IMG/VR virus record: IMGVR_UViG_3300042691_022780
Location: 1 to 22,241 of that record
Reading direction: 5' to 3' (one strand)
Length of the DNA: 22,241 nt
From: a virus
Shown: piece by piece, positions 1,682-17,664 of the stretch
Layout of the letters: every line of letters begins with the position of its first letter
How positions within the stretch are numbered: position 1 is the first letter of the stretch
Made by a program: the position numbers and the translations under genes
Notes under the pieces: generated by a model
The model's database searches: none
What the model saw: the letters and a program-made list of their open reading frames with translations, nothing else
What the model was told of the DNA's origin: nothing

Positions 1682-2593
1682 TTAGCTCGCACCGGGCGAG
1701 CCGTAGGCTCCCAGCGGATCTGAAACACCGAAGCTGTAACGCTCACGAGCCTTGTACCGCGCGTTGCCGGTATCAAAGTCCGCGTCCATCGACGTTTGCA
1801 TCGGCGTACGCACAAAGTGCTTCAGGCCGTTAGGCACATCGGTCAAAAGGAACCAAGCGTTGCTGTCGGTCAGATAATGGTTGACCGTATAGCCTTCTGG
1901 AATCGAGTTCATCGATTTCAGCGCGTTGATATCGTTGTCCGCAGTCGAGACACGAAGCTCGGTCTCAAGCAGGCGGGTTGCAACGAACATCAGCGCAGGC
2001 GGAACAACCAGCTTGCGGGGCTTAGCTGCGATCAGCAGACCACGCTCATCCGTCCACGCAGCGATCTGAATAACGGCGGCCTCAAGCGAGGTCTCGTTCA
2101 GGTCAGCTGCAGTAGCAGGGCGGTTGCTGTTGGTGCCACCGGAGACCAGCGGGTGTGCGGTCGAGAACAGCGTCTGGCCGTCACCGTAGGTGTAGCTGCC
2201 ATTGAAGCCGTTGTTCAGAATCGCAGCTCCCTTGACCTGCTTGGTGTACGCCATAGCCCGAGCCAGCGACTTGGTGTACCGCGAGGACAGGCTGTCGTAC
2301 AGGTTGTCTTCCATCGCCTCTTCGGTGATGGAGAAGCCCATAGCGATGGTCTCGTGGTTGTACCGAGCCGTCCAAGCTTCTTGCGCGTTGTCATAAGCAA
2401 GAGCAGAGCCCTCGTTTTTGACCGGCGCGGCGCTGAAGCCCGACAGTTTGGTTTCCTCTTCGAACGAACGCTCGGAGGTCTCGGTTTCGAAGATCTCTTT
2501 GTGCTCTTCGCCGTAACGCTTGTACTCCAGACCAAACAGAGCGTTAAGTCCTGGGAGCAGCTCTTTCAGTAATTGTGCGCGTGAAATAGCCAT
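1682..2593 (-). CDS. Major capsid protein
   Basis: This 303-aa protein resembles capsid proteins of environmental tailed phages related to the Mu gpT-type major head subunit, probably with an HK97 fold. Characteristic stretches are YNHETIAMGFSITEEAMEDN (78-97), TLFSTAHPLVSGGTNSNRP (141-159), VVPPALMFVATRLLETE (196-212) and the C-terminal ARYKARERYSFGVSDP (278-293). There is no obvious cleavable delta domain. AAGGAG lies 7 bases before the ATG. Its place after the scaffold-like gene and before a strong terminator is what is expected for the major coat protein. The family assignment comes from recognised sequence features; a structure comparison would settle the fold. Confidence 0.9.
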   Translation of the reverse strand: MAISRAQLLKELLPGLNALFGLEYKRYGEEHKEIFETETSERSFEEETKLSGFSAAPVKNEGSALAYDNAQEAWTARYNHETIAMGFSITEEAMEDNLYDSLSSRYTKSLARAMAYTKQVKGAAILNNGFNGSYTYGDGQTLFSTAHPLVSGGTNSNRPATAADLNETSLEAAVIQIAAWTDERGLLIAAKPRKLVVPPALMFVATRLLETELRVSTADNDINALKSMNSIPEGYTVNHYLTDSNAWFLLTDVPNGLKHFVRTPMQTSMDADFDTGNARYKARERYSFGVSDPLGAYGSPGAS

Positions 2594-4756: not shown

Positions 4757-5134
4757 TTACGCACGCGTGACGCCACGCGGATCAGGCACTACGGCTTCAA
4801 CCGAGTCATCGTTCAACAAGCGGTATTCCTGCCCGTTAACCTTGAAACGCGTACCTGAATTGGGCCGGAACATAACGAAATCCCCAACCTTGCACCATGG
4901 CCCATTAGGGAAGCGATCCTTATCGGCGTACGCCTGTTCGCCCATGTCGATTACTGCACCCATCATGGAGAGGATCTGTTCTTCAAGCCTTGTACGATCA
5001 GCCTTCACAAGGCCGGATTCGTACGTTTCTTCAACCTTAGGCAAGGCAATCAGCAGCCGGTAACCCACCGGGCGGGGAAGTTGCGCTTCAAACTCCGCAT
5101 CTGTTAGTGCGGGTTGAGTCTCGTTAGTCATCAT
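4757..5134 (-). CDS. GroES-like co-chaperonin (Cpn10)
   Basis: This protein of about 125 aa contains a GroES-like core beginning near residue 20: RPVGYRLLIALPKVEETYES, then a GLVKADRTR stretch where the mobile loop belongs, then WCKVGDFVMFRPNSGTRF and YRLLNDDSVEAVV. The bacterial GroES order is preserved: the 'vGD.V.f' strand, then the domain around '.Y.....ddi.av'. I place the start at the tandem ATGs (5134 and 5131), which overlap the stop of the upstream gene; the longer reading frame upstream lacks a Shine-Dalgarno. By analogy with T4 gp31 it may adapt host GroEL to fold the capsid protein. The family call is firm; the role is inferred from the head-operon location. Confidence 0.85.
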   Translation of the reverse strand: MMTNETQPALTDAEFEAQLPRPVGYRLLIALPKVEETYESGLVKADRTRLEEQILSMMGAVIDMGEQAYADKDRFPNGPWCKVGDFVMFRPNSGTRFKVNGQEYRLLNDDSVEAVVPDPRGVTRA

Positions 5135-5321
5135 CAGCGTCCAAGTGATACTGCGCAAGGTCAAGGATTTCACGCTTTGCGGTCTCTAGACCTCGAATCA
5201 AGCCGCAAAGATCCCGATACTCCGCGTAGTCTTTCGCTGCGCCAGAGGCCAAGGAATCCGCAACCGCGTTTAAATGCGCGGTGATTTTCTCTACAAGCAC
5301 GTCAAAGACGGTTCGAGCCAT
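5124..5321 (-). CDS. Small helical protein between portal and GroES-like genes
   Basis: This 65-aa mostly helical protein starts MARTVFDVLVEKITAHLNAV, with a central AKDYAEYRDLCGLIRGLETAKRE and a very acidic end (LDADDD). The start overlaps the portal stop as TAATG at 5323-5319, and its own stop overlaps the GroES-like start, so three genes form a chain of coupled translation. Similar short proteins often lie directly after portal genes in environmental phages. Function is unknown; a small head-assembly factor is plausible. Confidence 0.75.
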   Translation of the reverse strand: MARTVFDVLVEKITAHLNAVADSLASGAAKDYAEYRDLCGLIRGLETAKREILDLAQYHLDADDD

Positions 5322-7648
5322 TATTGCGCTCCACTAGGCCGCGAGGCCTGTAGCAGTACTTTCTGCTCTTCAAGCGCAAGCTTGCGCTCGTCCAACTCGA
5401 TATCCGCGCGGTCTTTGACCGCCTTACGGTCGATGTCAGCTTTCTTGATCGCGAGCTCTTGCTGCTGCATCTGCACGAGCGGATCTTGTGCTGCTTGCTG
5501 CGCCTGCTGCTGTGCAGCCTGCGTCTGATGGATCTGCGTGAGTTGCTTGCCTGCATCAGCCACAAGCCTCGAGAGCTGCAGCTCGATTTCTTCGGGCATC
5601 TCTTCGTTGGGCGCGGGCAGGGGAGCGCCGAGACGCTCTTCGATCTGCTTCCGATACATGAAGCCCAAGTGCTCCGCGATGTGCGCTTGCAGGGAGGCCA
5701 TGATCTGTTGCGCAGCCGGGTTCTGGCCAATCGCTTGCATGATCATCGGGTCTTGCATAAACGACTGATGCGCGGCCAGATGCGCTTCGTGATCTTGGTA
5801 CAGGAACGCTTTCATGGGCTTACCAATCAACGCGCCCATGTTCTCGCTGATCGGATCACGCGGCTTCTGATCTTCAGCCAACGGCACGATCTTGTCGGCG
5901 TTCTTGATGCCCAGCACTTCGATCATCTGCCGGTGGAGATACGGCAAGTCGTAGATCTGCGGCGCACTCTGCGCCATCTGGAACGCAGCCTGATACTGCA
6001 CAACCCGCTGAGCCATCGTCGTGGCGTTGGGATCGCTCACAGGAATTACTTCGACAAGCGCGTAGTCCTCTGACCGCGCACGGCGATCCACACCCTCGGG
6101 GATGTAGTCATAAGGCTCATCAGCATACTCAGCGATAAGCTCCTTGAGGAGCTTGAACTCCTGCTTCATCGCAAAGTGCACACGCGCCTGCACCGCCGCC
6201 ATCGGCTTCAACACGCGCTCGAGAATCGCGAGCGTAGTCCCCACGGGAGCTTGTGATGACATATCAGAGACGTTCATGTCGCTGATGGCACCAAGCCTGC
6301 GCCCTTCATTCGTTATCCTGTCGAGCAGCCCTGCCAACACCTGACTCGGCTCTTTGTAAGGCAGGATGAAGAAGTTATCTTTGAGCGTGCCGCTGGGCAC
6401 ATCCACATCCCGCCACTCGCCCGGAGCAATCGGCGTGTCATCGCCCTTGATCCGCAGTCCACGTGCCTTCAAGCCACCCGGCAGGTTAGACAGCGTACCC
6501 GCGTCGACAAGCTGCCGCAGGAGCGACGTACCCGCGATGGCGTAGCCGCCAATGATATGAATCAGTCCAAGCCCGTAGAAGCCAAAGCCCGGCACATACA
6601 CGTAGTGTACGAAGTGATCGCGCTTAAGATCGGGATTGCCCGTGGGGTCCCAGTTCCTACGAATAGAAAGTACGTTTGCAGTGCCTTTATCGATGGTAAC
6701 GACATAGGGGCGAGGGAGCCCTTCCTCATCGTCAACCCCCGGCATGCAATAATCGATGTGCATCTCGTAGATCGCGTAGCGATCATCCGACTGCAAAGTG
6801 TATCCGCCCTCTTCGGCCTTGCGTTTCTCGATATCTGTAAAGAAGCTAACCGGCTCGCCCAGCTCAATCTCACGGTAGAACCCGGCAGCTTGCAGGCGCT
6901 TCAACTCGGTCTTGGTCTTACGCATCACATGCGTGACACGCTCGGCTAGCTGAAGGTTCGACGCACCATAGGGCACGATAACGTCTTCGGCTGGCAGGTA
7001 CATCGACACCTGCCGCTTCAACTGCACGTCGTAATAGACCTTCTTGAACGCAGAGCCCGCAAGGCCGAGAGAGTAAAGCATTCTTTCATGTTCTGACCGA
7101 TATTCAACCATTCTTTCAGTCAGCTGGTAGTTCATATCAGCACGAACGCGTTCAGCTGCTTTGGCCTTCACCGGCGTGACTTCGCCCAGAATCTTGGTCT
7201 TTACTGGCCCCGCAGCGGGAAACGTCTCACTCATTGTCTCCGCCTGAAAGCGAATAGCCGCCTCCAAGAGCACAGTGGAGAACACCCCGCAAGCGCCATC
7301 CCACGGCTCGGTGCGATCCTCGTACTTCAATCCCAGAACTTCGATGCCCTTGACGTACATATCCGCCCACTCTTTGCGGGCGGAGATATCCGCATCCACG
7401 AGCCCGATCAGCTCTGAGGCAAGTGAGTTCAGCTCGCCCTCATCCATCGACTCGGCTAGGTTCTCTTCAAACGAACCCTCTTCCGCCGTATCCTCCGGAC
7501 GGAGGATAATCTCCATGCTGCCATCGGACAGCGTCACGCTGTCTGGGTTCTCGATTTCAATTTCCAACGCATCGCTGTCTTCTGCGTCAAGGGCGGAGAG
7601 CCCCGTGGGGGCGGCATACAGACCTTTATCAATCAAACTCGTTGCCAT
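5321..7648 (-). CDS. Portal protein
   Basis: This 775-aa protein resembles large portal proteins of podovirus- and P22-like environmental phages, forming the ring through which DNA is packaged and which joins head to tail. An acidic N-terminal segment (1-75) is followed by the core with WADMYVKGIEVLGLKYEDRT, GACGVFSTVLLEAAIRFQAE, a YLPAEDVIVPYGASNL region and the long helical MSSQAPVGTTLAILERVLKP. The last 120 residues are Gln/Ala-rich and helical, like the barrel or crown extension of large portals. It begins 8 bases after the terminase stop. Size, neighbours and sequence all agree; which portal subfamily it belongs to is uncertain. Confidence 0.9.
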   Translation of the reverse strand: MATSLIDKGLYAAPTGLSALDAEDSDALEIEIENPDSVTLSDGSMEIILRPEDTAEEGSFEENLAESMDEGELNSLASELIGLVDADISARKEWADMYVKGIEVLGLKYEDRTEPWDGACGVFSTVLLEAAIRFQAETMSETFPAAGPVKTKILGEVTPVKAKAAERVRADMNYQLTERMVEYRSEHERMLYSLGLAGSAFKKVYYDVQLKRQVSMYLPAEDVIVPYGASNLQLAERVTHVMRKTKTELKRLQAAGFYREIELGEPVSFFTDIEKRKAEEGGYTLQSDDRYAIYEMHIDYCMPGVDDEEGLPRPYVVTIDKGTANVLSIRRNWDPTGNPDLKRDHFVHYVYVPGFGFYGLGLIHIIGGYAIAGTSLLRQLVDAGTLSNLPGGLKARGLRIKGDDTPIAPGEWRDVDVPSGTLKDNFFILPYKEPSQVLAGLLDRITNEGRRLGAISDMNVSDMSSQAPVGTTLAILERVLKPMAAVQARVHFAMKQEFKLLKELIAEYADEPYDYIPEGVDRRARSEDYALVEVIPVSDPNATTMAQRVVQYQAAFQMAQSAPQIYDLPYLHRQMIEVLGIKNADKIVPLAEDQKPRDPISENMGALIGKPMKAFLYQDHEAHLAAHQSFMQDPMIMQAIGQNPAAQQIMASLQAHIAEHLGFMYRKQIEERLGAPLPAPNEEMPEEIELQLSRLVADAGKQLTQIHQTQAAQQQAQQAAQDPLVQMQQQELAIKKADIDRKAVKDRADIELDERKLALEEQKVLLQASRPSGAQ

Positions 7649-10011: not shown

Positions 10012-10026
10012 TTCTAATGCTTAGAA
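10012..10026. promoter_or_regulatory. 15-bp palindrome family, site 1 (variant)
   Basis: TTCTAATGCTTAGAA keeps both 6-base arms (TTCTAA, TTAGAA) of the motif found at six other places in the rightward half. It ends 8 bases upstream of the -35 element at 10035, where an activator or repressor could contact RNA polymerase. Confidence 0.6.
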
Positions 10027-11443: not shown

Positions 11444-11594
11444 AATTCATTAACAAACCCCGCGTTACACAACTTTGATACAGCCCTCAAATTCATTAAC
11501 AAAACCCGTGTTGCACGGGTTTGATACAGCCCTCAGGCATTTCAGCGGAATTCATTAACAAACCTGCTGTTACACAACTTTGATACAGACTTGA
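11444..11594. repeat. Three 46-bp direct repeats upstream of a promoter
   Basis: Copies start at 11444, 11490 and 11549; the first two abut and the third follows after 13 bases. Each begins AATTCATTAACAAA and contains TTTGATACAG near the end. Copy 2 differs in the middle, where AACCCGTG-TTG-CACGGGTT makes an 8-bp hairpin that copies 1 and 3 lack. The third copy runs into the -35 element at 11591. An inverted 11-base copy of the first half (GTTAATGAATT) lies at 11113-11123. Their place suggests tandem operators. Confidence 0.75.
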
Positions 11595-11844: not shown

Positions 11845-12618
11845 ATGTATTACGTCCCCGCTCAGCTGTTCTCGATTGATTCCAACGCCAAGACCGTCAA
11901 GGGTCAGAAGTACGGATACAAGACTGCGGTTCTCTACCTTGCCCCTGCCGGGCTCGCGTTCCAAGCCCTCGGGATCGAGGGCACCATGTGCGCCCTGTCT
12001 GCAACCGCAGGTTGCGAGGGCCCCTGCCTGAACACTGCGGGGCGTGGGCAGTTCGACGCGATCCAGACCGCCCGTATCAATAAGACCATTTACTTCCTGC
12101 TCGACCGCATTGGGTTCATGCAGCACCTTGCCCATGAGATTCGTGGGTTCGTAGACCGCACCCGTGCCGAGGGGTACATCCCCCTTGTCCGGCTGAACGG
12201 TACGCAGGACCACCGCTGGGAGAGCGAGCCCGTGGAGCTTGACGGTGTAACGTACCCGAACCTGATGGCCCTTTTTCCTGACGTGCAATTTTACGATTAC
12301 ACCAAGCTTGCCAACCGTCGCGGCATCCCCGCGAACTACGATCTAACCTTTTCCTACAGTGGCCTGCCCGGGTTCCAACCCTTCGTTACCCGTGCCCTTG
12401 CCACTGGCATGCGGGTGGCGGTCGTTTTCCGCGACCGCGAGTCTATTCCTGCCAAGTTCTTGGGCCTGCCCGTCGTTGACGGTGACGATTCAGACCTGCG
12501 CCCGCTGGATCCCCCGGGCTCCATCGTTGCCCTCTATGCCAAGGGCAAGGCCAAGCGTGACGTGAGTGGGTTCGTAGTGGACGCCCCCCGCCGTGTGATC
12601 CCCCTGCTCGCTGCCTGA
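11845..12618 (+). CDS. Gp88-like phage protein
   Basis: This 257-aa protein resembles phage proteins of the 'gene product 88' type, first named from mycobacteriophages. Visible landmarks are a cysteine cluster, C49, C57 and C61, in GTMCALSATAGCEGPCLNTA; then PLVRLNGTQDHRWESE, LFPDVQFYDYTKLANRR, LTFSYSG, MRVAVVFRD, LPVVDGDDSDLRPLDPPGSI and ALYAKGKAKRDVSGFV. The evenly spaced hydrophobic strands suggest an alpha/beta barrel, and the three closely spaced cysteines could bind a metal or Fe-S cluster. No biochemical function is established to my knowledge. GGAG lies 8 bases before the ATG. The family call is from memory. Confidence 0.75.
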   Translation: MYYVPAQLFSIDSNAKTVKGQKYGYKTAVLYLAPAGLAFQALGIEGTMCALSATAGCEGPCLNTAGRGQFDAIQTARINKTIYFLLDRIGFMQHLAHEIRGFVDRTRAEGYIPLVRLNGTQDHRWESEPVELDGVTYPNLMALFPDVQFYDYTKLANRRGIPANYDLTFSYSGLPGFQPFVTRALATGMRVAVVFRDRESIPAKFLGLPVVDGDDSDLRPLDPPGSIVALYAKGKAKRDVSGFVVDAPRRVIPLLAA

Positions 12619-12626
12619 GATTGAGT

Positions 12627-12641
12627 TTCTAACCATTAGAA
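12627..12641. promoter_or_regulatory. 15-bp palindrome family, site 5, joined to a ribosome site
   Basis: TTCTAACCATTAGAA, identical to the site at 11656, is again followed directly by GGAG and then an ATG (12651). The gap between the two genes is only 32 bases and contains no convincing promoter, so this copy argues for action on the mRNA or on elongation. Confidence 0.65.
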
Positions 12642-12650
12642 GGAGTCGCC

Positions 12651-12830
12651 ATGTTGCACATGATCGATTGGAAGGCTGAACTTGCTAAGTTGGAATCCGA
12701 CAACACCGAAGACTGCCGGCCCCCTGCAGGGGTGCAGGGGATTAACTTAGCGCTAACCGAACCGAGCCTAGATGATCAGTTGCTCCGCATGTACGTGGAG
12801 CGTGAGCTTGCCAACCTGATGGGAGAGTGA
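12651..12830 (+). CDS. 59-aa protein, unknown function
   Basis: This short protein starts MLHMIDWKAELAKLESDNTE, has a Pro/Gly-rich middle and a helical end (DDQLLRMYVERELANLMGE). The Shine-Dalgarno (AGAAGGAG) is built from the palindrome at 12627. The stop is followed one base later by the start of the NinX-like gene, so the two are probably coupled. Within the gene, 12721-12732 is a perfect 12-base palindrome (CCCCTGCAGGGG). No family is recognised; coding is supported by the ribosome site and tight spacing. Confidence 0.65.
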   Translation: MLHMIDWKAELAKLESDNTEDCRPPAGVQGINLALTEPSLDDQLLRMYVERELANLMGE

Positions 12831-12831
12831 G

Positions 12832-13206
12832 ATGAAAACCAACGAGCTAACCGGTGCCGCCCTTGACTGGGCAGTGGCGTGTGTTGAGAAGCTGCCGATG
12901 GACTTGCTGGTGTGGGAGTACGGCCTGCCTGTGGTCAAGCGTACCCTCCTCGGGCATACCGATACGCTTCGCTGCGAGTTCTCCACCAACTGGTCCCAAG
13001 GCGGGCCGATCATTGAAAGAGAGGGCATCAGCATAGAGAGCACCACCATGCGTGGAAAGGGAGGCAACTTCGCATGGCGGGCTACCCGCGTTGAAGGTCC
13101 AGCCGTGTCTGAGGAATATGGCATCACCCCCCTCATCGCTGCCATGCGCTGCTACGTTGCATCCTGCCTCGGCGACGAGGTGGAAGTGCCGGAGGAGTTG
13201 AGATGA
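12832..13206 (+). CDS. NinX-like protein (DUF2591)
   Basis: This 124-aa protein begins MKTNELTGAALDWAVACVEK, the start expected for DUF2591/NinX proteins. It contains FSTNWSQGGPIIEREGISIE (about 50-69) and the conserved end YGITPLIAAMRCYVASCLGD. NinX-type proteins are common in the early or middle regions of lambdoid and environmental phages; their function is not established. The start is one base after the preceding stop, and the end overlaps the next start by four bases (ATGA), so it lies within a tightly coupled chain. Confidence 0.85.
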   Translation: MKTNELTGAALDWAVACVEKLPMDLLVWEYGLPVVKRTLLGHTDTLRCEFSTNWSQGGPIIEREGISIESTTMRGKGGNFAWRATRVEGPAVSEEYGITPLIAAMRCYVASCLGDEVEVPEELR

Positions 13207-13286
13207 AAGAGATCCTTGCCGCCACCCTGCTCGGCGTGGCCACTGCCTTCTTCACATGGCAGCTGGTCGAACATCTAATTAAGTGA
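13203..13286 (+). CDS. 27-aa single-span membrane peptide
   Basis: The frame ATG at 13203 overlaps the preceding stop as ATGA and encodes MKEILAATLLGVATAFFTWQ followed by LVEHLIK and TGA. Almost the whole peptide is hydrophobic (about residues 4-24), with charged ends, so it should be one membrane helix. Very small membrane peptides are common in phages and are often missed by gene finders. Function is unknown; a membrane-targeting anti-host peptide or a small holin-like peptide are possibilities without direct support. Confidence 0.55.
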   Translation: MKEILAATLLGVATAFFTWQLVEHLIK

Positions 13287-13293
13287 GGGGGCC

Positions 13294-13491
13294 ATGGCCA
13301 AGTGGAACCGCACACCGTGGGGCTCGGGGTACGACTACCGTGAGCGCATGCTCACCTGCACCTGCCGAGCCCGCTCGTGCGGGGTGTGCCTGATCGCCAT
13401 ACGCATGCTAGTCAACCTGAAATCAGACCGGACTGGGACCGCCGCCGTGAGGAGAATGCATGACCCACGCCCCAAAAAATTCTGGCTTTAA
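13294..13491 (+). CDS. 65-aa cysteine-bearing basic protein
   Basis: It starts MAKWNRTPWGSGYDYRERM and contains a compact cysteine group, CTCRARSCGVC (about 22-32), that could hold a metal ion. The rest is basic and ends PRPKKFWL. GAGGGGG before the ATG is a possible ribosome site. Its end overlaps the next gene by 32 bases. The Trp/Arg-rich composition resembles the microproteins that follow, but it lacks their ending. No family is recognised. Confidence 0.5.
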   Translation: MAKWNRTPWGSGYDYRERMLTCTCRARSCGVCLIAIRMLVNLKSDRTGTAAVRRMHDPRPKKFWL

Positions 13492-13669
13492 CCCACGGCA
13501 TACGACAGACCGCCTGCTGGATCTGGGCGGGCGGCAGGCCAAGGTGCGCAGGGAAGTGCGTGCCATGTGGACGCGGAACGACAAGCGCAACCGGCTGTAT
13601 GACTGGTCGAACTGGCAAGACGCCCCCGGAGAGGAGTGGCTTCTAAAAAAGGAGTTTCAGAGATGGTAA
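13460..13669 (+). CDS. Microprotein array member 1
   Basis: This 69-aa basic protein contains KRNRLYDWSNWQ and ends WLLKKEFQRW. GGAG lies 5 bases before the ATG. The last codons, AGA TGG TAA, hold the start of the next gene in the 7-base overlap ATGGTAA (13663-13669). The two shared motifs ('RLY' and 'W.L+....RW' ending) recur in later members of the array. Function is unknown; the high Arg/Lys/Trp content would suit binding nucleic acid or an acidic host protein. Confidence 0.65.
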   Translation: MTHAPKNSGFNPRHTTDRLLDLGGRQAKVRREVRAMWTRNDKRNRLYDWSNWQDAPGEEWLLKKEFQRW

Positions 13670-13821
13670 AGGAGCGCAATCGGCGGCTGCCCAGCGCGAA
13701 CGCATACCGGATTCGACGGCTGTACCACCGCACGGACAACGTGTTCAGTAAGCGCCTGCGAATATTTGACGGCAGTAATGGAAGGCCGTGGGCTCTGAAG
13801 GAGGCGTTCAGGAGATGGTAA
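13663..13821 (+). CDS. Microprotein array member 2
   Basis: This 52-aa basic protein starts MVKERNRRLPSANAYRIRRL, has RRLYHR and ends WALKEAFRRW. I chose the internal ATG at 13663 over the upstream one because it forms the recurring ATGGTAA overlap with the previous gene and has GGAG 8 bases upstream. It resembles members 1 and 3 in the central RLY and in the ending. Confidence 0.65.
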   Translation: MVKERNRRLPSANAYRIRRLYHRTDNVFSKRLRIFDGSNGRPWALKEAFRRW

Positions 13822-13985
13822 TAAGCAATCAGATCAAGGGTGCCCTCATGCCGGGGCTGGCCGCTCGATTCAACCGGCTGTACGAGCGAAGCCCGCTGGG
13901 GGCAGTCAAGGAGAAGCGCATGCGCATGTACTACGGCAGGGCCGGGGGGTACTGGGCCTTGAGGGAGGGGATGAAGAGATGGTGA
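13815..13985 (+). CDS. Microprotein array member 3
   Basis: This 56-aa protein has FNRLYERSP in the middle and ends YWALREGMKRW. Its ATG lies in the ATGGTAA overlap with member 2, preceded by GGAG sequences, and its own end overlaps member 4 as ATGGTGA. With members 1 and 2 it shows the clearest paralogy: RLY, then a K-rich stretch, an aromatic residue and the W.L(K/R) ending. Confidence 0.65.
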   Translation: MVISNQIKGALMPGLAARFNRLYERSPLGAVKEKRMRMYYGRAGGYWALREGMKRW

Positions 13986-14092
13986 TCGAGTCCTTCGCCC
14001 GCTTACGTAAGCTCCGGGGGTTCGCAGCGTGGGTGACCGTGGACTGGAAAGACATGCAACTAGATAGGTACCGCCGATGGCTACGCTCTTAA
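13979..14092 (+). CDS. Microprotein array member 4 (37 aa)
   Basis: This 37-aa protein starts MVIESFARLRKLRGFAAWVT, continues VDWKDMQLDRY and ends RRWLRS. Its start is in the ATGGTGA overlap with member 3. Its end uses a second junction type: the bases ATGGCTACGCTCTTAA (14077-14092) both finish this gene and start member 5. Because it is so short, coding is inferred mainly from the regular chain of overlaps. Confidence 0.5.
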   Translation: MVIESFARLRKLRGFAAWVTVDWKDMQLDRYRRWLRS

Positions 14093-14232
14093 CCGCCAGA
14101 TCATTTGGTGTTGAAGCTTTGAGGATCCTCGAGCGCACGTTTCGCCCGCCACGCGAGCGCATGCCGTCCATCCTGATTCAGATCAAGCGAGAGCAGCTCG
14201 CGAGACGGAGGCCCCCATGGCTACAAACTTGA
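14077..14232 (+). CDS. Microprotein array member 5
   Basis: This 51-aa protein starts MATLLTARSFGVEALRILER, is strongly basic, and ends PPWLQT. It starts in the 16-base overlap with member 4 and ends in a second 16-base overlap with member 6 (ATGGCTACAAACTTGA, 14217-14232). Its N-terminus resembles that of member 6 (MAT-LT-RS). The Shine-Dalgarno is poor (ATAGGTACCGCCG before ATG), so it may rely on re-initiation. Confidence 0.5.
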   Translation: MATLLTARSFGVEALRILERTFRPPRERMPSILIQIKREQLARRRPPWLQT

Positions 14233-14396
14233 CTGTCCGGTCACTGATTCGAAGTCTGGGCCTGCCCATTGGAACGGTGCCTCTGCCACTGCCCCGCAGG
14301 CTAGTGCCCTCGTATGAGGTTCACGACAAGCGCGCCAAGATGTACCACCCCTCAATGCACCGGCTCTCACTGCGCAGGGAGATGCAGAGATGGTAA
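14217..14396 (+). CDS. Microprotein array member 6
   Basis: This 59-aa protein starts MATNLTVRSLIRSLGLPIGT, has a Pro-rich middle (VPLPLPRRLVP) and ends LSLRREMQRW. It joins the two subtypes of the array, having the MAT-LT-RS start of member 5 and the ..RW ending of members 1-3 and 7. GGAG lies 6 bases before the ATG; the end overlaps member 7 as ATGGTAA (14390-14396). Confidence 0.55.
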   Translation: MATNLTVRSLIRSLGLPIGTVPLPLPRRLVPSYEVHDKRAKMYHPSMHRLSLRREMQRW

Positions 14397-14536
14397 CCGT
14401 GCCCCCCAAAAACCGGAGGCGGGCGCAGCATGCCCTTGCCAACTACGGGTCCAAGTATGGCTCGCTGTATGCGGGGATCGTCTCAGGCCTTGGGAGGCTG
14501 CAGTGGGTGCTCAGACCGGAGATGAAGAGATGGTAG
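14390..14536 (+). CDS. Microprotein array member 7
   Basis: This 48-aa protein starts MVTVPPKNRRRAQHALANYG, has YGSLYAG and ends QWVLRPEMKRW. GGAG is 8 bases before its ATG, in the same spacing as at the starts of members 2 and 8. The end overlaps member 8 as ATGGTAG (14530-14536). Confidence 0.6.
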   Translation: MVTVPPKNRRRAQHALANYGSKYGSLYAGIVSGLGRLQWVLRPEMKRW

Positions 14537-14694
14537 GCCGATGGATGCCCGTCACCGACTGGCACGACCCGTATGCAAACAAGCCCCCTGCCCTTCGCAG
14601 GCTAGCGCTTTTCGAGGTGTACACGAACAAGCGCCGCACGACCCGTGCTCGAGCCCGCCTCTACAAGATCCCACCATTTGACAAAGTAAGTTGA
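14530..14694 (+). CDS. Microprotein array member 8 (last)
   Basis: This 54-aa protein starts MVGRWMPVTDWHDPYANKPP, has a basic helical middle (NKRRTTRARARLYK) and ends IPPFDKVS. It keeps an RLY but lacks the RW ending, as expected if that ending is tied to overlapping a following start codon: no gene overlaps its end. Its last codons contain the -35 element of the next promoter (TTGACA at 14678). Confidence 0.6.
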   Translation: MVGRWMPVTDWHDPYANKPPALRRLALFEVYTNKRRTTRARARLYKIPPFDKVS

Positions 14695-14706
14695 CCATGT
14701 CATAAT
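14678..14706 (+). promoter_or_regulatory. Strong sigma70-type promoter of the MoxR operon
   Basis: TTGACA (14678-14683), a 17-base spacer and CATAAT (14701-14706) make a near-consensus promoter. It is followed by TTCAGTTTG and later TTCGCAGTTCG, resembling the sequence after the promoter at 11591. It lies inside the end of the last microprotein gene and should start the MoxR/VWA transcript near 14713. Confidence 0.8.
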
Positions 14707-14735
14707 TCAGTTTGTTGTTCGCAGTTCGTTGGTCC

Positions 14736-14750
14736 TTCTAATCCTTAGAT
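14736..14750. promoter_or_regulatory. 15-bp palindrome family, site 6 (degenerate)
   Basis: TTCTAATCCTTAGAT matches the perfect motif at 13 of 15 positions. It lies in the leader of the MoxR gene, 35 bases after the start of the -10 element and 17 bases before the ATG. The equivalent distance at site 4 is 42, so the layout of promoter, leader and motif is similar. Confidence 0.5.
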
Positions 14751-14766
14751 CCTTCTGGAGATTCCC

Positions 14767-15831
14767 ATGCTTCAAGTCAGCCTCAAGCAAGCCGCCAACC
14801 TCGTCCGTACCTGCGGTACATCGAACACCTTCCTCTTCCTCGGTCAGCCCGGCATCGGCAAGAGCGCCATCCTCTCCATGCTGGCGGGGGAGATGCCCGA
14901 CTATCATCCTTGCTACATCGACTGCGCCAATCTGGATCTGGGCGATCTCGGCATGCCGTTGATTGACCGCGAGGAGGGCGTCACGTCTTACGCTCCCAAT
15001 GTGCGGTTCGGGATCGGGCGCTCGCAGACCAAGCCCTGCCTGATCATGCTTGATGAGTTGACCAAGCCCGCCTCCCGTGCGGTGCTGAACATGGTCCTGC
15101 CCGTGGTCCTCGAGCGTCGCATCGGCGACCGGGCGCTGCACCCTGCCTCGATTGTGTTTGCTACAGGCAACCTGCTGACTGACGGTGTGGGCGACATGCT
15201 GCCCGGGCATGCGTGGAACCGCATGACGGTGGCTGACGTACGGAACCCCATCAACGATGAGTGGATCGAAGACTACGCACTGCCCATGGGGCTGGCCCCC
15301 GAGGTGATCCTCTTTGCCAAAGAGACGCCCGAGGCGTTTCAGCGGTACGACGAGTTGCGTGAGAAACAAACCAATCCGCATATCTTCAACCCCCGCACGG
15401 GTAACGTGCGTGCCTGCTGCACGCCCCGCTCACTGGCCAAGGCCAGCCCGCTGGTGGCTGCACGGGACCAGCTGGGTGATGCGCTTCTGCCTGCGTTGGC
15501 CGGCACCATCGGCGAGCCTGCGGCTCGCAAGCTCGAGGCGTCCATCGCCCTCTCATCCAAGCTGCCCTCGCTTGCCTCGATCGTCCGTGACCCGCAGAAC
15601 GTCAAGCTACCCGACGGTGTGGCGCAGTACTTCCTGATGGCGCTCAAGATGGAGCATCAGACGAGCGAGAAGACTATCGATGCGTTCGCGACCTACGCCA
15701 TGCGGTGGGATTCGTTCGAGGCGAGCAACCTCTACGCCTCGCAGGTCTCGAGCCGCACGAAGAACGCAGGCCTCACGGTCAAGTCCCGTCCGTTCATGGA
15801 GCTGGCCACCAAGCATGGCCGGTATGTCTGA
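14767..15831 (+). CDS. MoxR-type AAA+ ATPase
   Basis: This 354-aa ATPase has Walker A GQPGIGKS (26-33), Walker B CLIMLDE (91-97), sensor-1 ATGN (132-135) and an HAWNRM segment (148-153) where MoxR proteins carry a conserved Asn-Arg. The C-terminal 150 residues form a helical lid and an unrecognised extension. MoxR ATPases work as ring-shaped remodelling machines together with a VWA-domain partner, and the partner is encoded two genes downstream. CTGGAG is 8 bases before the ATG, and the operon has its own promoter at 14678. The substrate in the phage is unknown. Confidence 0.92.
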   Translation: MLQVSLKQAANLVRTCGTSNTFLFLGQPGIGKSAILSMLAGEMPDYHPCYIDCANLDLGDLGMPLIDREEGVTSYAPNVRFGIGRSQTKPCLIMLDELTKPASRAVLNMVLPVVLERRIGDRALHPASIVFATGNLLTDGVGDMLPGHAWNRMTVADVRNPINDEWIEDYALPMGLAPEVILFAKETPEAFQRYDELREKQTNPHIFNPRTGNVRACCTPRSLAKASPLVAARDQLGDALLPALAGTIGEPAARKLEASIALSSKLPSLASIVRDPQNVKLPDGVAQYFLMALKMEHQTSEKTIDAFATYAMRWDSFEASNLYASQVSSRTKNAGLTVKSRPFMELATKHGRYV

Positions 15832-16024: not shown

Positions 16025-16511
16025 ACTCATCAGTCAGCACGTGCATCTGTGGGGGAGGCTGCCTGCGCCCGTCAAGGCGCATGTCGCGACGATCCTCGAC
16101 AGCATCCAAGCCAAGCCGCTTGACTGGTGCGCTGCGTGGGACAAGCGCTACGACATGATCGAAGAGCGTGAGGATCAGGACAACCCCCTGCCCCGCACTC
16201 GCGATGCATGGTGGGAGACCGATGCAGTGGCGCGCAGTCGCCGGCGTGGCAAGGCGTGGGCAGCGCTCTCACACACGCTGATGTCAGCCGATCCTCCGCC
16301 TGACCTGCCCAACTCTGAGTACACATGGGCGGCGGTGGTCGATGCAGCAAGCGATGCCATCGCTGCGCTCGTGGCATACGACGAGGCCAAGGACCTGCTC
16401 AAGGGCGACGCGGAAGGTGTGAAGTTCCTCATGGCATCAGGTAACACGCTTGCGCTTCTCATGTATCCCGCAACGCTTATCAACGGAGGGTTCCATGCTC
16501 AGCCCGCTTGA
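16008..16511 (+). CDS. 167-aa helical protein, unknown function
   Basis: It starts MPQLNELISQHVHLWGRLPA at the ATG with CAGGAG 6 bases upstream; an earlier in-frame ATG has no ribosome site. The protein is rich in Ala, Asp and Trp and mostly helical, with LDWCAAWDKRYDMIEERED in the middle and AAVVDAASDAIAALVAYDEA near 130. Overlaps of 17 bases at both ends place it firmly in the MoxR/VWA operon, suggesting a role with that complex. No family is recognised. Confidence 0.75.
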   Translation: MPQLNELISQHVHLWGRLPAPVKAHVATILDSIQAKPLDWCAAWDKRYDMIEEREDQDNPLPRTRDAWWETDAVARSRRRGKAWAALSHTLMSADPPPDLPNSEYTWAAVVDAASDAIAALVAYDEAKDLLKGDAEGVKFLMASGNTLALLMYPATLINGGFHAQPA

Positions 16512-17664
16512 CCGTGTTCGCCGTGCTCACGTAGCCATCATGGGCAACCTCGACTGGTGTGAGTATGGCCCGCTCTTGGCCTACGGCAAGACCGAGATCA
16601 CCGATGAGATCCCCACTGCTGCAACCGATGGGGTCAACAAACTCTACAACCCGGAGTTCATGTCAAAGCTCACTGATCAGCAGATCCGGTTCGTTGTGCT
16701 GCACGAGGCCACGCACATTGCGTATCAACACCTCTACACATGGAAGGCGCTGTCTGAGGAGAGCGCGATGCTGGCCAACATCGCGATGGACTTCTTCGTG
16801 AACACGGCGCTTATGGATACCGACAACGGCAGGGGGTTCATCGACATGCCTGAGGTGGGCATACCGCCCGAGCCCAAGTACCGGGGCTGGTCTGTGAAGC
16901 AGATCTACGATGACCTGAAGCAGAACGCCAAGCAGGTCAGCATTGCCAAGGCAGCAGGCGAGCTGGACAAGCACCTGCAAGGTGATGGTGCGAAGGGCGA
17001 TGCTGAAGCCGCGAAGGTAGGCGAAGAGGTCGAGCGTCTCGTGCGCCAAGGTCAGATCGTCAAGGATCAGCGGCAGCGTCTTGCAGGCAAGGGATCATCA
17101 GATCAGGCTGGGATGTTCGGCGACATCCTCGCGCCTCGCGCAGACTGGAAGAAGGTCCTGCGGGAGTTCATGACCGAGACCTGTTCTGACCGCGACGAGC
17201 CCTCGTGGCGCCGGCCCAACCGACGCTACATGCATGACGATGTGTACCTTCCCTCCATGGAGGGCGAGGCGATGGGCGAGGTGGTGTTCGGGTTCGATAC
17301 CTCAGGCTCATGCTTCGGGTCAGATCACATGGCGCGGGTGGTGTCAGAGCTGCAGTCGCTCGTGGCTGAGGTGCGGCCCTCGAGGATCATCGTCGTGTAC
17401 TGGGACACCAAGGTAGTGGACCATCAGATCTTCGAGACCGGCTCGTTCGATGTGGCGGCTATCAAGCCGCGAGGCGGCGGGGGAACGGATGCTAGCTGTC
17501 TGTTCGACTGGCTTCGTAAGGAGCGCATCACCCCGCAGGCTGTCGTGCAGTTCACTGATGGTGAGGTAGGCAGCTGGGGGCGCAGCACATGGCCCACGAT
17601 CTGGGCGGTGACCAGCAAGCACATCACCGCGCCATTCGGTACAACCATTCATGTAGAGGTATGA
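16495..17664 (+). CDS. VWA-domain protein with zinc-peptidase motif
   Basis: This 389-aa protein has two parts. The N-terminal part carries HEATH (70-74), a zincin-type HExxH, followed by NIAMDFFVN (95-103), as in predicted metallopeptidases of the COG3864 kind. The C-terminal part (about 262-389) is a VWA-like domain with a MIDAS-type FGFDTSGSC (265-273), GGGGTD (327-332) and FTDGE (353-357). A charged helical linker (about 140-200) joins them. VWA proteins of this type pair with MoxR ATPases such as the one upstream. GGAGGG precedes the ATG by 4 bases. All key residues are present, so it is probably active in metal binding. Confidence 0.9.
   Translation: MLSPLDRVRRAHVAIMGNLDWCEYGPLLAYGKTEITDEIPTAATDGVNKLYNPEFMSKLTDQQIRFVVLHEATHIAYQHLYTWKALSEESAMLANIAMDFFVNTALMDTDNGRGFIDMPEVGIPPEPKYRGWSVKQIYDDLKQNAKQVSIAKAAGELDKHLQGDGAKGDAEAAKVGEEVERLVRQGQIVKDQRQRLAGKGSSDQAGMFGDILAPRADWKKVLREFMTETCSDRDEPSWRRPNRRYMHDDVYLPSMEGEAMGEVVFGFDTSGSCFGSDHMARVVSELQSLVAEVRPSRIIVVYWDTKVVDHQIFETGSFDVAAIKPRGGGGTDASCLFDWLRKERITPQAVVQFTDGEVGSWGRSTWPTIWAVTSKHITAPFGTTIHVEV

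Follow-up and report, generated by a model that had tools for sequence, protein, structure and literature searches.

In the stretch of viral DNA analysed here (the window, a linear record from an uncultured phage, 22,241 bases long and probably a fragment), eight very short genes, M1 to M8, overlap one another in a single array between a small Cys-rich ORF and a MoxR-like ATPase gene. The array lies on the plus strand with the non-structural genes, and the terminase, portal and major capsid genes are carried on the minus strand. The capsid protein shares 74% identity with that of the Planktothrix phage Pag-Yong1 and 62–65% identity with those of phage DSL-LC04 and the pelagiphages HTVC023P and HTVC027P. 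A sister phage, represented by contig IMGVR_UViG_3300013131_000668 (L002), was found to have four array genes (N1 to N4) in the same slot. The features are as follows.

1682–2593, minus strand: major capsid protein (phrog_371) with N-terminus MAISRAQLLKELLPGLNALFGLEY, to which N2 has a match and M3 a weak one
12628–12640: operator-like palindrome TCTAACCATTAGA, upstream of the putative transcription unit ending in the array
12832–13206, plus strand: NinX-like gene (phrog_4389, PF10765), upstream of the array in the same putative unit
13294–13491, plus strand: Cys-rich ORF of 65 aa, directly preceding the array; L002 counterpart at 5029–5208
13460–13669, plus strand: M1, 69 aa, family member with orthologue N1 in L002; Shine-Dalgarno (SD) sequence AGGAG
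13651–13667, plus strand: putative M1/M2 restart site, GGAG-N8-ATGGTA, repeat families D1 and D2
13663–13821, plus strand: M2, 52 aa, family member, closest paralogue of M3
13803–13819, plus strand: putative restart site with a different spacing, repeat families D1 and D2
13815–13985, plus strand: M3, 56 aa, family member, likely orthologue of N2; start resembling the capsid N-terminus, LMPGLAARFNRLY
13967–13983 (with GGGG), 14378–14394 and 14518–14534, plus strand: similar putative restart sites, repeat families D1 and D2
13979–14092, plus strand: M4, 37 aa, in the chain, without demonstrable relatives
14077–14232, plus strand: M5, 51 aa, sharing the start MAT-LT-RS with M6; SD AGGT
14217–14396, plus strand: M6, 59 aa, family member, with 69% identity to N3 across its C-terminal 36 aa; dN/dS 0.44
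14390–14536, plus strand: M7, 48 aa, family member; 12-codon remnant in L002 (5732–5770)
14530–14694, plus strand: M8, 54 aa, orthologue N4 in L002; membership of the repeat family not clear
14737–14749: palindrome TCTAATCCTTAGA, where the next unit (ATPase) begins
14767–15831, plus strand: MoxR-like AAA+ ATPase (phrog_1297), the array's neighbour on the right, conserved and 93% identical in L002

The exact palindrome TCTAANNNTTAGA is present in 7 copies in the window (at 10013, 10915, 10972, 11657, 12628, 14737 and 17942) against 0.25 expected, and the unit containing the array probably begins at the copy at 12628 and ends before that at 14737. Several copies lie directly 5' of an SD sequence, and one adjoins a promoter-like TTGACA/TACAAT pair. 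Similar counts were obtained for related contigs, with 7 palindromes in L002, 10 in L004 (TCTAAYCGTTAGA), 10 in L003 (TTTAAYCGTTAAA) and 9 in L011 (TTTAAGSCTTAAA); the palindromy is kept between phages while the letters differ, as for an operator evolving with the phage's regulator. The protein encoded at 16450–17664 carries the PHROGs label 'HNH endonuclease' (phrog_1314). In Pag-Yong1 an ATPase gene and a VWA-like gene are arranged in an order similar to that of 14767–15831 and 16450–17664, and the window's ATPase and phrog_1314 protein may therefore form a MoxR-vWA chaperone pair. A 46-bp tandem duplication (11444–11535, two copies, 86% matches) precedes a gene of 257 aa.

Genes as short as those of the array are usually dropped by gene finders. 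The first-pass annotation had listed eight frames of 69, 52, 56, 37, 51, 59, 48 and 54 aa, each starting inside the end of the one before, and all were recovered at these lengths, with overlaps of 7, 7, 7, 16, 16, 7 and 7 nt. A chain finder run blind (ATG-initiated ORFs of 30–75 aa, each starting 1–20 nt inside the previous one) returned exactly these eight frames as the longest chain in the window; among 200 copies simulated from the window with an order-2 Markov model, the longest chain had 5 members (once) and was typically 2–3. Using a looser finder, chains of 5–8 small overlapping ORFs were detected in other phage contigs, and real phage DNA is thus richer in such chains than random DNA. 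Since these chains occur in other phages, the overlapping layout alone is unremarkable. One of them, in contig L049 (1900–2838), lies upstream of an ATPase homologue and likewise comprises eight short ORFs; its peptides are unrelated to the array family, and several resemble chance ORFs. In every array member the G+C content at the three codon positions is about.55/.48/.72, resembling that of the terminase, capsid and ATPase genes, and a clear SD sequence precedes 7 of the 8, the weakest being the AGGT upstream of M5. The peptides are strongly basic (pI 10–12), a composition on the basis of which nucleic-acid binding may be proposed.

The ends and starts of successive genes are written in the same bases. 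When read in the frame of the previous gene, AAGGAG...AGAG-ATG-GTAA gives ...E..RW-stop, and the 'RW' end arises because the next gene needs GGAG at that place, with ATGGTAA about 8 bases further on. The shared RW or W(L/A/V)L(K/R)...RW ending, taken earlier as a family signature, is therefore largely an SD sequence followed by the next start; its Leu and Lys/Arg, however, hold as protein-level features. In M1, M2, M3, M6 and M7, read directly, the Leu is encoded by CTA, CTG, TTG, CTG and CTC and the following Lys/Arg by AAA, AAG, AGG, CGC and AGA, respectively, and this use of differing synonymous codons indicates that the ending is partly kept at the protein level. Within 12600–14800, the stretch searched, the restart repeat is confined to the array, the window-wide element being the different, palindromic one. 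The restart motif was also found in many viral contigs and is therefore no useful family marker; when the family was looked for in those of the contigs that were retrieved, nothing but duplicates of L002's contig turned up. In the cluster K mycobacteriophages, too, many small genes have a repeated element at their SD, the start-associated sequences SAS and ESAS (PMC3203893), but SAS precede many different genes genome-wide, whereas the array repeat is part of the coding sequence of the gene before and moves together with related genes.

Relatedness of the peptides was evident beyond their composition. Against composition shuffles the summed pairwise BLOSUM62 score of the eight (28 pairs) had z = 10.7; with the last 7 residues of each peptide cut off, z was still 5.5, a value reached by none of 500 shuffles. 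The signal comes from M1, M2, M3, M6 and M7 and from the pair M5–M6, whose common MAT-LT-RS start, remarked on in the first-pass annotation, was borne out (z 3.8 for the pair after trimming). In phmmer searches among 39,544 ORFs, M2 and M3 matched each other with E of about 5e-5 to 9e-5, and M1 and N1 with E of 0.001 in both directions. A pattern shared among the related peptides starts with a short hydrophobic/aromatic segment and continues with K-R-x-x-[LM]-Y and, after it, L-[KR]-x-x-[MF]-x-R-W. M4 and M8 showed no convincing relatedness to the other members in pairwise scores against shuffles. Judged from these sequences, at least five, and probably six, of the eight genes encode paralogous basic microproteins; the idea of one related family of eight thus holds for five or six relatives but not clearly for M4 and M8.

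The neighbours of the array in L002 are the same as those in the window: the ATPase, the 257-aa gene (94% identical) and the same small Cys-rich ORF, for which the local alignment score between the two phages was 81 (shuffles 23.5 +/- 4.7; none of 2000 reached it). N1 matches M1, the best match of N2 is M3, N3 shares 69% identity with M6 over 36 aa, and N4 shares 64% identity with M8 over 45 aa. A 12-codon ORF in L002, MVTRPPFHRRLS (5732–5770), resembles the head of M7 (MVTVPPKNRRR). The joints N1/N2 and N2/N3 are 4-nt ATGA overlaps, as against 7 or 16 nt in the window. Between the two phages dN/dS was 0.44 for M6/N3, 0.49 for M8/N4 and 0.09 for the ATPase; for both array pairs another plus-strand frame gives a similar dN/dS, yet it contains a stop in the window. 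These values point to purifying selection on M6/N3 and M8/N4, which appear constrained but loosely. As the array was found in one relative only, its conservation is judged from a single comparison. When the integrity of the frames, which the first-pass annotation had wished to see checked in relatives, was followed in L002, the counterparts of M1, M3, M6 and M8 were found open, with purifying selection where measurable, but M7 is truncated to the 12 codons, and M2, M4 and M5 have no counterpart. The array thus gains and loses members between sister phages. Paralogy beyond chance and a copy number of 8 against 4 plus a remnant support the earlier proposal of a family grown by tandem duplication.

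Searches beyond the two contigs revealed no further relative of the array in the collections covered. No member matched the PHROGs, Pfam or NCBIfam profile libraries above cut-off. Searches of phages by tblastn with M1, M3, M8 and N3 gave chance-level matches or none, scans of viral contigs with M3, M8/N4 and M6/N3 returned nothing or L002's contig only, and a scan of genome contigs with M8/N4 returned nothing. The family profile had no credible match in about 80 other related records; a weak match in G034 was rejected for its internal stop. A weak match to N2 in L109 was taken as chance, the evident genes of that region reading differently. In more distant relatives the array's slot, immediately 5' of the ATPase, holds a single gene of 245–300 aa (245–260 aa in the following: L003, 5237–5978, in two frames; L006, 479–1258; L011, 4406–5143; L004, 5173–5940).

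The one likeness found to a protein outside the array is to the phage's own major capsid protein, and it had gone unnoticed in the first-pass annotation. The start of N2, MTVISRSFLLKSLLPGIEEMFDLAY, is identical at 13 of 22 positions to that of the window's capsid protein, MAISRAQLLKELLPGLNALFGLEY. In a search of 88,114 short ORFs with an HMM built from 49 related capsid N-termini, N2 ranked top after the capsid sequences (E 8.5e-4); an equal-scoring match in L340 is L002's own contig. None of 5000 shuffles reached the score of N2 (at most 9.4 vs 23.6 bits). The match was first noticed by eye, and its statistics are thus partly post hoc. Among 844 ORFs of the window and L002, M3 was next best, with 4 of 5000 shuffles reaching it. 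When N2 was compared with 50,697 phages by tblastn, four weak matches were obtained (E about 4, chance level), three of which fall, in register, on the capsid N-terminus of Pag-Yong1-type phages. By these scores the resemblance appears strong for N2 only and weak for M3, and the HMM detected none in the other members; capsid-like N-termini seen by eye in M5 and M6 were dropped after failing the HMM. The DNA of N2 and of the capsid gene has diverged, synonymous positions included, which leaves room for convergence; the likeness would thus go back either to an old copy whose protein sequence has been kept or to convergence on this segment. No capsid gene was found in L002's contig, and a sequence search for a structure of the window's capsid type found none. 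Structure predictions were poor (pLDDT 33 for the capsid protein and 62 for M3) and unfit for fold searches.

We consider the array to be a translationally coupled, fast-turnover operon of paralogous basic microproteins, to which we assign a probability of about 0.78. Since the SD sequence and start of each gene sit in the last codons of the previous one, translation along the array is likely to proceed by termination and reinitiation. The restart module could be duplicated together with its microprotein gene, which would account for both the common 'RW' end and easy tandem expansion and deletion.

What the peptides do is a separate question. Tentatively, and with the odds rather against it, the capsid-like segment may let them act on the head of the phage itself: in the N2/M3 lineage the N-terminal part, resembling the first ~24 capsid residues, would dock where the capsid arm docks, and the basic tail would bind either an acidic partner or nucleic acid, the peptides in this way tuning assembly or passing into the head. 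A more specific version, which we regard as doubtful, is that the array encodes tandem capsid-arm mimics, variable microproteins whose N-arm-like segment would dock on the capsid protein of the phage itself or of a competitor, the basic tail tuning head assembly, condensing DNA in the head or blocking assembly of co-infecting relatives. That assembly can be redirected by small proteins which mimic head proteins or are homologous to them is known from satellites: CpmB of SaPI1, a 72-aa capsid-size redirector, has a short motif in common with the scaffold and competes for the scaffold's site on the capsid protein (PMC5644958), and Ccm of SaPIbov5 is a capsid-protein homologue (PMC8569155). The segment in common with a head-assembly protein is strong in N2, weak in M3 and lacking in the other members. 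CpmB and Ccm, however, are encoded by satellites against their helper phage, not in tandem arrays, and their action was shown by cryo-EM and genetics; the array is tandem and carried by the phage itself, the window having terminase, portal and capsid genes, and its likeness to a head protein is known from sequence alone.

The capsid step, though not the array itself, competes with the view that these are host-takeover genes, small, dispensable and fast-evolving, with basic products that would bind to the host's nucleic acid, RNA polymerase, ribosome or membranes, the capsid resemblance being incidental. To host takeover, taken broadly, we give a serious chance, somewhat short of even, and the remaining weight falls on other roles. 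The placement of the array among non-structural genes on the strand opposite the head genes, the high pI and the fast turnover are in keeping with it, and clusters of this kind are well described: SPO1 has a 26-gene host-takeover module (PMC6873191), with the RNA-binding Gp49 (PMC10531801), which, like the array, is a dense cluster of small non-structural phage genes, its functions being host-directed. On the other hand, profile searches gave no match of the array family to any inhibitor, and the resemblance of N2 and M3 to the capsid N-terminus would be left unexplained. To our knowledge the members of the SPO1 module do not form a family of tandem paralogues whose restart sites lie within genes, and we know of no host-takeover cluster made of tandem paralogues.

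It is improbable that the array is a translational relay, in which overlapping ORFs pass ribosomes along, the shared endings are repeated ribosome-binding sites and the peptides hardly matter. Such a relay would fit the make-up of the shared end, largely SD plus start, and the unequal conservation of members, but not the similarity surviving removal of the last 7 residues, the different synonymous codons for the ending's Leu and Lys/Arg, or dN/dS below 0.5; nor is a long gene coupled at the array's end, since the ATPase gene is set apart by a gap of 72 nt that includes a palindrome and an SD of its own. That the frames are no genes and arose by chance in G+C-rich DNA, either facing a genuine antisense gene (13488–14171, 227 aa) or within the remains of a larger one, is very improbable and was rejected. 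The antisense ORF is present, and the slot holds one 245–300 aa gene in more distant relatives, but the antisense ORF lacks the phage's codon-position pattern (G+C.64/.61/.56), a long antisense ORF at the corresponding place is missing from L002, such a chain is unlikely to arise by chance (maximum of 5 in 200 null copies) and the family profile does not match the larger gene.

As a coupled operon of paralogues, the array suggests that a duplicated restart module joined to a basic microprotein is a simple route by which phages may make and diversify tiny proteins, with a copy number that can be compared between sister genomes. The capsid-like start renders function testable and, if the resemblance is functional, the array would parallel, on a phage's own genome, the strategy of head-protein mimicry described for satellites.
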